From a virus, in IMG/VR virus record IMGVR_UViG_3300007735_000564, positions 1 to 27,616 of that record: DNA of 27,616 nt; one strand, written 5' to 3'. Position numbers and translations under genes: made by a program. Positions 19,907-22,633 of the stretch are shown here, piece by piece; within the stretch, counting starts at the first letter, position 1, and every line of letters starts with the position of its first letter. Under the pieces are notes generated by a model. The model saw only the letters and a program-made list of their open reading frames with translations. It was not told the origin of the DNA and searched no databases.

Positions 19907-21769
19907 TTAGATGAATGTTTTGTTTTGCTCTGCGAATAGTTCATCTAGGTTGACAACTGTTCGCTTACCTATCTCGTGACGAGACAGGAATGGGTTTGCT
20001 AGGTGATGCTTTGAGTACTTGCCGTAGTTGAGCATCTCACGGGCGCGGATCTCACAGAACCAGAGCGCCATTACTAAGTCAGTCTTACCCTTAGTAGTTG
20101 GAGACCACGTAATCAATTGCTCAATAAGAGCTTTGACATTCTCGGTCTGATCTGAAGGTAAGTGAATAAGATTATCTCGGTGGTGCTTGCCATCGTGTTG
20201 CTTTGTACCAAAGAGGCTAGACATAGAGGCTACGCCAAAACCAGCATCCCATTTATTCTGACCGGTATGGTGTTCCTTGAATTGAACTCCACGAGTTGCC
20301 AAGTGCTGACGGATGCCTTCATCTTGTGTAAGGAAAGACTGGAAAGCGTTCTTCTCTACAATCCATTCGGACGGTGAGTAGATAGAAGTCCAGTCAAAGA
20401 TTAAGTTACGAATTGCTGCAGGTGATGGTCGGGTAATCTTAATAGCATCTACGATGTAGCGCTTATTAGAACTACGGTCTACCGCGTAGCAGATAGCTGC
20501 GGTATCGCCAATCATTGCAGGGTCTAGCCCGCAGATAATAGAAAAGCCGTTCAAGTCTCGCGGATGTCCAGGGTGGCCTGCAATCAACGGACCTGACTTA
20601 CGCATACCGTCAATAGAGCCACGTACACATACTGGGTCAAAGGCTGAGTCATCTGATATATCTTGTTGCTGATAAATCAAAGCCCAGGTACTAGCATCCA
20701 TAGACTGGCGTTCGTTAAATAAGTTGCGACCTGACCAGCGTGGGTATAGACCAGTAACCTCATCCTTATCGGATTCAGCTTGTCCATCGAAGGGTGCATC
20801 TGATGCAGGCCACAAAGTTTCCCATTTGTCGGGGTCTTCATCTGCTGTCAGAAGCGCCGGCATCGCAAGATATGTCCACGGGACGAGACCGCCTGGGTAG
20901 CGGTCCTCATTGCGTAATTCTTTATAGAGGTCAACGGAAGCCACACGGGTACCGATAATAATAAGTTTACCTGTTGGGTTTAGACGAGAGCGTACGTCCT
21001 GTGTTAGCCACTTAATCTGACGTTCAAAGTCATTAGCGTTAGACAAGGTAACAGCATCGTCTACAATAATCATATCGGCACGCTTGCCGTAAATCTGACC
21101 GCCGATACCGACGGCTTCAATGTTCGGATCTTTTTCACCAGACTCACGGAGTTCATCTCCGAAGGTGATACGGGTTGCCTGCCACGATGCTGACTTAGAG
21201 TTAAAGCCAACACCAGCGGCGTAAGCCTGCTGGAGCTGCTCATACATCGGGTGAGTCAGTCTCTGCTTAATAGCGTAGAGAAAGTCTGCGGCTAAGCTCT
21301 GTGTCTGAGAAACAATCAGGACTCTAAAGTTCGGGTTCTGGGCTACCATCCACGTTACGTAGTCCACGGTTATCGTCATAGACTTGGCGTGGTTTGGCGG
21401 GATGTTAATGAGGATTCTATTGTTAGCAACGCCTGGCTCATACTTCATAGCGGGGTGTAACCAACTTGGCGGCCTACCCTCGATAACATCTACAATGTTC
21501 TTCTGGTGGGCGAAAGTCTTGGAGTGTAGGAAGCGTTCACGGAACTCTTCAAAGGAGATGTCGTGGACATCGCCTGAGGCAAAGGACTTGTCTTTGAGTC
21601 CGAGCCGTGTACGGTCAATCTTATCGGTGAAGACCTTATCAGTGCGCCGGTAGTATTCGTATGTCTTCATAGACTTACCAGCTGAGGCACACGCCTGCTC
21701 GATAGTCATACCCTCTGCTACACAACCAAGGATAATTCTTTTGGCTATGTCTGCACTGTTTTCTGCCAC
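19907..21769 (-). CDS. terL: Terminase large subunit with N-terminal HTH
   Basis: A 620-aa DNA-packaging motor, starting at GTG 21769 with AGGAG upstream. Residues 1-60 contain a helix-turn-helix of small-terminase style (GMTIEQACASAGKSMKTYEY). The ATPase has a variant Walker A (PPNHAKS, 124-130), Walker B (MIIVDD, 233-238) and coupling motif GTR (273-275). The nuclease has GLDPAMIGDTAAICYAVD from 414 and a late Asp in GKTDLVMALWF. It should bind the portal, translocate DNA by ATP hydrolysis and cut genome ends. No separate small terminase gene appears in the window, so the N-terminal domain may do the DNA recognition. Confidence 0.9.
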   Translation of the reverse strand: MAENSADIAKRIILGCVAEGMTIEQACASAGKSMKTYEYYRRTDKVFTDKIDRTRLGLKDKSFASGDVHDISFEEFRERFLHSKTFAHQKNIVDVIEGRPPSWLHPAMKYEPGVANNRILINIPPNHAKSMTITVDYVTWMVAQNPNFRVLIVSQTQSLAADFLYAIKQRLTHPMYEQLQQAYAAGVGFNSKSASWQATRITFGDELRESGEKDPNIEAVGIGGQIYGKRADMIIVDDAVTLSNANDFERQIKWLTQDVRSRLNPTGKLIIIGTRVASVDLYKELRNEDRYPGGLVPWTYLAMPALLTADEDPDKWETLWPASDAPFDGQAESDKDEVTGLYPRWSGRNLFNERQSMDASTWALIYQQQDISDDSAFDPVCVRGSIDGMRKSGPLIAGHPGHPRDLNGFSIICGLDPAMIGDTAAICYAVDRSSNKRYIVDAIKITRPSPAAIRNLIFDWTSIYSPSEWIVEKNAFQSFLTQDEGIRQHLATRGVQFKEHHTGQNKWDAGFGVASMSSLFGTKQHDGKHHRDNLIHLPSDQTENVKALIEQLITWSPTTKGKTDLVMALWFCEIRAREMLNYGKYSKHHLANPFLSRHEIGKRTVVNLDELFAEQNKTFI

Positions 21770-21781
21770 GGATCTCCTAAT

Positions 21782-21794
21782 GGCGCGAAGCGCC
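21782..21794 (-). promoter_or_regulatory. Hairpin immediately upstream of terminase ribosome site
   Basis: GGCGC-GAA-GCGCC is a perfect 5-bp stem with a three-base loop, four bases before the AGGAG of the terminase gene. On the late transcript it would sit at the edge of the ribosome footprint. An A6T4 tract follows on the upstream side. It could tune terminase translation or act as part of a packaging signal. Confidence 0.5.
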
Positions 21795-21813
21795 GAAAAA
21801 ATTTTGGGGACGG

Positions 21814-21843
21814 GCCGGAATCATTCGATTCCTTTATACCGGC
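21814..21843. repeat. Nested inverted repeat
   Basis: GGAATC-ATTC-GATTCC forms a 6-bp stem with a four-base loop, and GCCGG / CCGGC encloses it as an alternative outer stem. TACCGGCT recurs at about 21837 and again at about 21867, so the outer arm has two possible partners. Confidence 0.5.
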
Positions 21844-21882
21844 TTGAAGGGGATTTTTAATTAAGTACCGGCTAAGGTAATT

Positions 21883-21894
21883 GATAGAACTATC
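21883..21894. repeat. Short hairpin GATAG-AA-CTATC
   Basis: Perfect 5-bp stem with a two-base loop; equally readable as a 12-bp palindrome for a dimeric DNA-binding protein. Confidence 0.35.
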
Positions 21895-21904
21895 CCAACT
21901 AAAA

Positions 21905-22043
21905 CCCGCGACTGCGGGGACTGGTCGGGCTTGAACGCCCGAAGGAGCCACAGCGACTGAGGGGTAAGTCAGCGCTCATCCTTAGGGGACTCGCGTAGGG
22001 TAACCGTAGCGAGTAATTCGGGGCTTCCCCGGCTTACAGCCCC
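21905..22043 (-). ncRNA. Array of five hairpins: structured leader or non-coding RNA candidate
   Basis: Five stems follow each other with little between them: CCCGC/GCGGG (21905-21918); TCGGGC/GCCCGA (21925-21942); an extended stem AAGGA...AGCG-A-CTGA with TCAG-CGCT...TCCTT (21942-21983); ACTCGC/GCGAGT (21989-22014) with GGTAACC in its loop; and GGGGCT/AGCCCC (22020-22043), which competes with a tighter GGGG-CTT-CCCC. This density of G+C-rich stems contrasts with the AT-rich surroundings. On the minus strand it would be the 5' leader of the terminase message; on either strand it could be a stand-alone RNA or a packaging/origin element. No tRNA cloverleaf fits. Confidence 0.5.
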
Positions 22044-22059
22044 TACTATATAGAAGGCA

Positions 22060-22078
22060 GGAAATTTAGACCATTTCC
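22060..22078. repeat. Inverted repeat GGAAAT / ATTTCC
   Basis: A perfect 6-bp stem with a seven-base loop that closes the run of hairpins on the early side of the late leader. AT-rich, unlike the five stems to its left; may be an operator rather than an RNA stem. Confidence 0.4.
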
Positions 22079-22192
22079 CGCGTTGGTATTACATATCTTT
22101 AATAATGTGGTGTAACTCACACGGTTTGCTATTCTGACCTGCGGTTTTACCAGATCCAGCTTTCACTTTAGGAAATATATTTATTTGGGGAG

Positions 22193-22222
22193 TATATACC
22201 TCCGCGCCAAGAAATTAAGCAA
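22193..22222 (-). promoter_or_regulatory. Possible late promoter (leftward)
   Basis: Read on the minus strand, TTGCTT and TATATA are separated by 18 bases, weakly matching sigma70-type -35 and -10 boxes. It would start a leader of about 420 bases that contains the hairpin array. The match is imperfect and a phage-encoded activator may be needed. Confidence 0.3.
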
Positions 22223-22267
22223 CAGGGGGTCTGTTTTCTGCCTGTACGCCTTGCCCCTAGCCCCTTG

Positions 22268-22289
22268 CCTATTTTTTAAGAGCAATAGG
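22268..22289. repeat. Inverted repeat around T-run
   Basis: CCTATT and AATAGG form a 6-bp stem around a ten-base loop that includes the end of a T6 run. It might be an operator or weak terminator between the two halves of the hub. Confidence 0.3.
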
Positions 22290-22337
22290 AGAAGAGTAAG
22301 AGCGTGCTAACCCTACGGCACTTTATTAACATCTCCC

Positions 22338-22527
22338 GCAGCACTATTAAGTAACCGCTCTAATAGCTAAGCCGATAACACCGAGCAGCTCTAGCCGATA
22401 GCTCTAACATCTCGCAGCTCTAGCGGATCGCAGCTAATAGCTCGCAGCTCTAAGCTCTTACCTATGTTACCCGTGAGTAATGTTACCCGTGAGTAGAGCT
22501 TAAAAGCTGCCCTAGATAGCAGCTAAA
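22338..22527. repeat. Iteron-like GCAGCTCTA repeats
   Basis: GCAGCTCTA occurs at 22385, 22414 and 22444, spaced 29 and 30 bp, the first two extended to GCAGCTCTAGC. Variants occur at 22338 (GCAGCACTA), 22430 (GCAGCTAAT) and 22519 (GCAGCTAAA). Several further AGCTCTAA units lie between. Regular spacing near three helical turns suggests a protein binding along one face of the DNA, as at replication origins or repressor arrays. Confidence 0.6.
22464..22495. repeat. Perfect 16-bp tandem direct repeat
   Basis: ATGTTACCCGTGAGTA occurs twice with no spacer. It lies between the GCAGCTCTA repeats and the early promoter-like element. A tandem operator or an origin-protein binding site is likely. Confidence 0.7.
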
Positions 22528-22556
22528 AGATCTAAAAGAATTAAGCTCTTGCCTAC

Positions 22557-22584
22557 TTGACTATAGGGGATAGTACGGTACTTT
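22557..22584 (+). promoter_or_regulatory. Possible early promoter with palindromic operator
   Basis: TTGACT at 22557-22562 is followed after 16 bases by TACTTT at 22579-22584, a moderate sigma70-like pair, about 50 bases before the first early ATG. The spacer holds the palindrome AGTAC-G-GTACT (22572-22582), where a repressor dimer would block polymerase. Confidence 0.4.
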
Positions 22585-22633
22585 TATCTAGTGGGCAGAT
22601 AGCCCGCGAGCTTTACCTACCGAAAGGCTTACT

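Follow-up and report, generated by a model that had tools for sequence, protein, structure and literature searches.

Comparison among related phages showed that the minus strand ahead of the terminase large subunit gene (TerL) in this window, the whole 27,616-nucleotide stretch of viral DNA that was analysed, carries a structured RNA of a new family, about 160 nt long, heading the late operon in freshwater phages. The element occupies positions 21883-22045 on the minus strand (163 nt; the copies of relatives measure 144-177 nt), and TerL (19907-21769, minus strand) is the first gene of the late operon. We propose, with a probability of roughly 0.45, that this phage RNA forms the 5' end of late transcripts and regulates, by attenuation or antitermination, whether the polymerase elongates into the operon.

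Relatives were collected with the TerL of the window as query, which gave 80 IMG/VR loci, and with a TerL-independent 24-base core pattern, which gave many more. These searches located the core at 192 of 196 IMG/VR sequences. In 187 of the 192 core loci TerL follows on the same strand after 105-722 nt, and the other five contigs end before reaching it. Longer records hold at most one copy of the core. The exact core was found in none of approximately 85,000 bacterial and archaeal genomes whose contigs were searched, nor were TerL relatives found there. The element is, as judged from its distribution, phage-specific and bound to the site ahead of TerL. A preliminary description of this region had stated that none of the familiar RNA families fits it, and this holds for Rfam 15: the window gave no match at the gathering score and none up to E = 5 in 21700-22600, and the other representatives checked gave none at the element position. 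Literature searches found no report of the element, and PMC10202952, in the parts available to us, is silent on it. Covariance model R1 scored the window element at 110.5 bits, with the window itself in the training set.

The preliminary description listed nine stems within 21782-22078 as an array. Stem and fold checks recovered all nine, but as three separate groups: those at 21883, 21905, 21925, 21942, 21989 and 22020/22043 are parts of the conserved RNA, the stem at 22060-22078 is the palindrome of a promoter-like module upstream of the RNA, and those at 21782 and 21817 are accessory. The hairpin at 21782 does lie four nucleotides before the terminase ribosome site, as described, but both accessory stems occur in only part of the relatives. 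The fold of 21770-22090 was better than that of controls of equal dinucleotide content (z = -3.3 on the plus strand and -3.5 on the minus strand, 200 dinucleotide shuffles); the adjacent 22090-22400 gave z = +0.8 and -0.2, respectively, in the same test, and 72 dereplicated relatives had a mean z of -1.6 in the sense and -1.3 in the antisense direction. As both strands fold about equally well, energy alone neither proves an RNA nor picks a strand, and the minus strand was settled by comparing base pairs among relatives. Such modest and strand-symmetric advantages of single sequences over shuffles might also be produced by chance hairpins, but this explanation, like that of a translated region, is refuted by the comparison and is extremely improbable, given the covariation described below and the reading frames. 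Element lengths spread over every class modulo 3, and each of the 138 distinct copies has stops in frame 0, as nearly all have in the other two frames. With such lengths and stops, the element is by these measures non-coding and the region untranslated, a point on which the preliminary description could have failed.

Covariation was evaluated with an alignment of 72 dereplicated element copies (A1), and pair counts and the tree used the 138 distinct copies. RNAalifold on a MAFFT alignment returned only ten pairs, with stem types misaligned with each other; because of this misalignment, structures were tested by named pairs and by an unaligned stem inventory. In A1, 90.8% of the pair cells of helices P1, P3 and P4 were standard, versus 79.9% after shuffling, and these helices contained 122 double changes versus 39 and had a covariation score of 0.253 versus 0.102, which none of 500 shuffles reached. 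Sliding the partners by one column lowered pairing to about 50%. The compensatory changes that the preliminary description left to comparison are therefore found across relatives, and besides the pair S-S' discussed below they include variants of P1, P3 and P5.

The 5'-most hairpin, P1 (22020-22043, minus strand), pairs GGGGCT (22043-22038) with AGCCCC (22025-22020), and the mutually exclusive pairings that had been noted at 22020-22043 proved to be real alternatives. The stem inventory contained at least ten P1 sequences with pairing kept, among them GTAAAAC/GTTTTAC, GCAAAGC/GCTTTGC, GCAAATC/GATTTGC and AGGGGTTT/AAAGCCCT, and pair counts showed zero mismatches among 38 copies of one type. P2 (21989-22014, minus strand; ACTCGC/GCGAGT) has GGCCTC/GAGGCC, CTTCGC/GCGAAG and other arms in relatives, with the alignment of this helix between types being uncertain. 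P3 (21978-21990, minus strand; GTCC-CCTAA-GGAT) keeps its CCTA(A) loop while its arms change together (GGCC/GGCC, GCCC/GGGC, CATCCC/GGGATG, GCCCC/GGGGC).

The conserved core, P4 (21938-21963, minus strand; CCC-UCA-S-UUC-GC(UGUR)GC-UC-S'-YUC-GGG), is conserved in sequence as well as in shape. Its pair S-S' (G21957 and C21944 in the window) was the strongest covarying pair, and each of the 138 distinct copies has either G-C or C-G there. On the TerL tree the pair underwent 15 parsimony changes, and in 13 of 13 supported independent pairs both bases switched jointly (p = 0.00024), which indicates a structured RNA whose compensatory changes go beyond relatedness. Recombination as a block could move S and S' together, but linkage alone is insufficient to explain the switches because the base between them (A or G) is unlinked, being freely combined with both S-S' states. 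The neighbouring pairs 112-129 and 115-127 had weaker covariation support, and the proposed CCC-GGG pairs of P4 never vary and thus give no covariation signal.

P5 (21926-21941, minus strand; CGGGC-GUUCAA-GCCCG) has a GNYAA loop in most copies and GGGAGT/ACTCCC arms in L154 and L196, and its stem is absent from 24 of 138 copies (about 17%). The GGG of TTCGGG can pair either with the CCC of P4 or within P5, so that the base of P4 and P5 are mutually exclusive, and both uses are conserved in most copies. Two further candidates were rejected or left out. P5 had been considered as a tRNA-like T-arm on account of its GUUCAA loop, but relatives carry GNYAA loops and ARAGORN finds nothing; a long-range closing helix of CUUACCC with GGG(A)UAG can form in many copies, with outer pairs that lack covariation.

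Directly 5' of the RNA stands a promoter-like module, AAARCGGGAAATGNNTTAAATTTCCTGCCTTATATATAGTAGGGG, which is near-invariant in 106 distinct upstream sequences. It comprises a palindrome (22057-22081, minus strand; GCGGGAAAT-N7-ATTTCCTGC) that is a putative activator or operator site, and the -10-like hexamer TATAGT (22045-22050, minus strand). The only perfect match in the window to GGGAAAT-N6-ATTTCC is at 22060-22079. A sigma-70 scan of the window found no site with a matching -35 at TATAGT, and since a -35 of the sigma-70 type is lacking, transcription from here may require an activator or a sigma-like factor encoded by the phage itself. The RNA lies at a fixed distance from this module and at a variable distance from TerL, which argues that it is anchored to the start of the transcript and not to the translation of TerL. 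In the complete-like relatives G001 and G006, one copy each of module and core is followed by a long run of genes on the same strand; in G006 this run includes almost all genes (about 36 kb), so that the element would head a very long transcription unit if there is no internal promoter. The RNA is likely to be the 5' part of the late transcript, and synteny, covariation and the promoter-like module agree with the earlier suggestion that the minus strand encodes, where the late message begins, a structured regulatory leader or a phage non-coding RNA. A phage-encoded protein with sigma-70 region 4, a candidate reader of a late promoter, was also observed at L351:13913-14569.

P1 starts only a few bases from the -10-like hexamer, and its sequence drifts while its pairing is kept, which would also suit a leader that stabilises the late mRNA or serves its translation or processing, with 5'-terminal hairpins shielding it from decay and the rest organising processing. 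A sister clade described below also has a 5'-terminal hairpin. We regard this explanation as unlikely, as it accounts neither for S-S' nor for a P4 core that hardly varies.

At the 3' end of the element, directly after the core, a hairpin (21897-21918, minus strand; CCCGC-AGTC-GCGGG, then TTTTAGTT) with a TTTT run resembles an intrinsic terminator. A terminator-like hairpin of -5 kcal/mol or better, with compensating arms, was present in 30 of the 72 relatives; the others have a weak one or none, and relatives of the class ending GCGGCAGGTGTA lack the U-run. A termination role for this hairpin and U-run is plausible but not uniform. After the U-run follows GATAGTTCTATC (21883-21894, minus strand), which is conserved in alignment A1. 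Between the RNA and TerL, some phages have a tRNA, a small ORF or a duplicated insert; the tRNAs are tRNA-Arg(ACG) or tRNA-Phe(GAA) (L027:2115-2188, L069:4912-4985, L070:477-550, L073:537-612, L106:2658-2731). Related inserts of about 130-150 nt (GTGACA...GTATGTAGGC...CACCTACACGGCGCTGTCAGTCGCTCGGTC), with no Rfam match, occur just upstream of TerL in L078 and L079.

These features could instead belong to a free-standing small RNA, made from the late promoter and ended by the hairpin and U-run or through processing, whose target in trans would be host or phage mRNA, polymerase or a protein. The combination of a promoter-like module, a conserved fold and a terminator-like hairpin in about 40% of copies would fit such an RNA, as would the preservation of P4 in sequence and shape, and the tRNA genes immediately downstream in some phages would release the 5' part when processed. 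However, TerL always follows on the same strand, for which action in trans gives no need, and the terminator is inconsistent among copies; we hold this alternative to be a real but minor contender.

The elongation-control reading supposes that the palindrome and TATAGT form the late promoter and that the first 160 nt or so of the transcript fold beside the polymerase. The folded leader would then decide whether transcription stops near the hairpin and U-run at 21897-21918 or proceeds into the long late operon, the GGG of TTCGGG toggling between P4 and P5 as a switch and the balance being shifted by a phage factor, a host factor or the RNA itself. Such a leader would act like an attenuator or antitermination leader and not as a switch of TerL translation or a packaging site. 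We favour this reading because of the covariation and synteny, the single copy ahead of a long same-strand run in G001 and G006, the hairpin and TTTT after the core in the window and about 30 of 72 relatives, the conservation of both uses of the same GGG in most copies, and the sister clade, in which a leader of its own, likewise rich in hairpins, follows a comparable palindrome and -10-like sequence. Control of ribosome binding at TerL is disfavoured by the gap of 105-722 nt and by the tRNA genes that lie within it (L027, L069, L070, L073). The reading is weakened by the terminator-like hairpin, which over half of the relatives lack or have only in a weak form, by the loss of the U-run in one class, and by the invariance of the CCC-GGG pairs, which places them outside the covariation test. 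Promoter, transcript start and termination at the element are putative, being read from sequence. No NusG-like protein or domain was found in ten relatives, and a PHROGs search of 20 proteins from two relatives identified no known antiterminator and found a sigma-like factor; a phage sigma-like factor could control the late genes without antitermination.

The late leader of lambda consists of the promoter pR', the 6S RNA and the terminator tR', at which Q antiterminates, and terminase is a late gene. The arrangement here resembles it in having a promoter-like module, a leader of about 160-200 nt, a hairpin with a U-run (in part of the copies) and the late operon; it differs in the conservation and covariation of the leader RNA itself, in having TerL as the first gene and in a terminator that only some copies have, and no Q homologue was identified among the 20 proteins of two relatives searched against PHROGs. 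The put sites of phage HK022 are cis-acting antitermination RNAs of about 65 nt with two hairpins, present as two copies in the early operons. Like put, the element would fold in the nascent transcript shortly after a phage promoter, but it is a single copy of 144-177 nt ahead of the late operon with an unrelated structure, and it does not correspond to put itself; the put-like antitermination role offered in the preliminary description is possible. In lambda nut, boxB is a 5-bp stem with a GNRA-like pentaloop that is always present. P5 bears only a likeness to it: it is a stem of 5 bp with a pentaloop of the GNNAA type and follows GCUCSYUC, but it is absent from 24 of 138 copies and the boxA-like stretch includes the swapping base S'. 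No N-like protein was found, N-like peptides being too short for the search. The element shares with the pRNA of phi29 that it is a phage-encoded structured RNA near packaging genes, and it differs in its lack of an Rfam match, in a classical TerL phage with cos-like ends, and in its position at the start of the late operon.

The preliminary description had also suggested a packaging site read by the helix-turn-helix of terminase. As a cos or pac site, the region would be a DNA element recognised by terminase, with the inverted repeats being protein sites; it adjoins TerL, contig ends cluster upstream, and the N-terminal stretch of TerL resembles a helix-turn-helix. TerL itself matches Pfam Terminase_6C weakly (E 8e-4, below the curated cut-off) and is 42.7-47.5% identical to annotated phage terminases and to the unannotated OX376641. 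However, the contig ends coincide at a single base of a cos-like motif (TGCCG...GGTA, then GTMNGCCC) that lies 324-358 nt upstream of the core and about 260 bp upstream of the RNA. In the window this motif is at 22300-22321 on the minus strand, with GTGCCGTAGGGTTA and GCACGCTC on the two sides of an inferred cut at 22308/22307; independent contigs (L045, L040, L070, L019, L220) begin at the same base. A search from the early side for contigs ending at this site gave a single locus. This motif, outside the RNA, is on present evidence the better candidate for the genome end, and the RNA, which does not coincide with the cos-like contig starts, is not supported as a cos or pac site. Near TerL, the direct repeats AGCCGGTA (21837-21873, minus strand; TACCGGCT on the plus strand at 21837-21844 and 21866-21873) differ among phage groups (CCGGTA, CCTAGTA, CAGCTAAT, CCGATAA, CCAGGTATAAAT), the two copies usually agreeing, and they look like the sites of a fast-changing DNA-binding protein. 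The helix-turn-helix of TerL, which is nearly invariant among relatives while the repeats change, was rejected as their reader. Moreover, two bases 14 nt apart that alone swap as a pair, across a base linked to neither, would be unexpected for a DNA site, and a promoter-like module directly adjoins the element; a packaging role is highly unlikely. An insert of about 70-80 nt in the GGGATAG/TTCTATC region was seen in L006, L017, L018, L028 and L030, and it contains a long hairpin with a further copy of the direct repeat of the respective group.

To our knowledge, RNA-directed control of late transcription is little known outside lambdoid phages. The phages studied here are widespread in lake metagenomes, and their uncatalogued RNA provides a defined object for the question of how late genes are switched on. 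A sister clade (L268-L347), whose TerL is about 47% identical, includes the cultured Planktophila phage LanE43AprF5 (F5, OX376641). Ahead of TerL it has a leader with a hairpin array, its own palindrome (e.g. ACCCGTTCCAACGGGT) and a TATATAG-type -10, so that place and plan are the same but the sequences, with the core CACAGTTATGCCGTT..., are different. Model R1 had no match above noise in this leader, and a score of 19 bits for L279 was treated as noise. Homology to the leader of Streptomyces phage Immanuel3 or to that of OX376641 was rejected, as neither has the core or a model match. It is conceivable, though we offer this only tentatively, that the element represents a new class of cis-acting, switch-like leaders with which phages of freshwater Actinobacteriota program polymerase for a long late operon, and that an unrelated RNA has replaced it at this position in the sister clade; if true, RNA-based control of late transcription would be general and fast-evolving in these phages. 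The alignment and model make the element searchable, and the cultured phages of the sister clade make the idea testable. Phage F5 and its Planktophila host are described in PMC10202952, according to which cultured relatives infect 'Ca. Nanopelagicales', a group that ranks with the most abundant bacteria of fresh water.

Several minor observations were made in other contigs of the set. L035:702-765 (minus strand) has a sub-threshold match to the type II hammerhead ribozyme (32.4 bits, gathering score 37, E 0.008). L351:8293-8856 encodes a phage proteasome/HslV-like peptidase, and a short protein at L351:18040-18642 and L349:5264-5884 matches the central domain of the DNA polymerase sliding clamp and RusA-like families.
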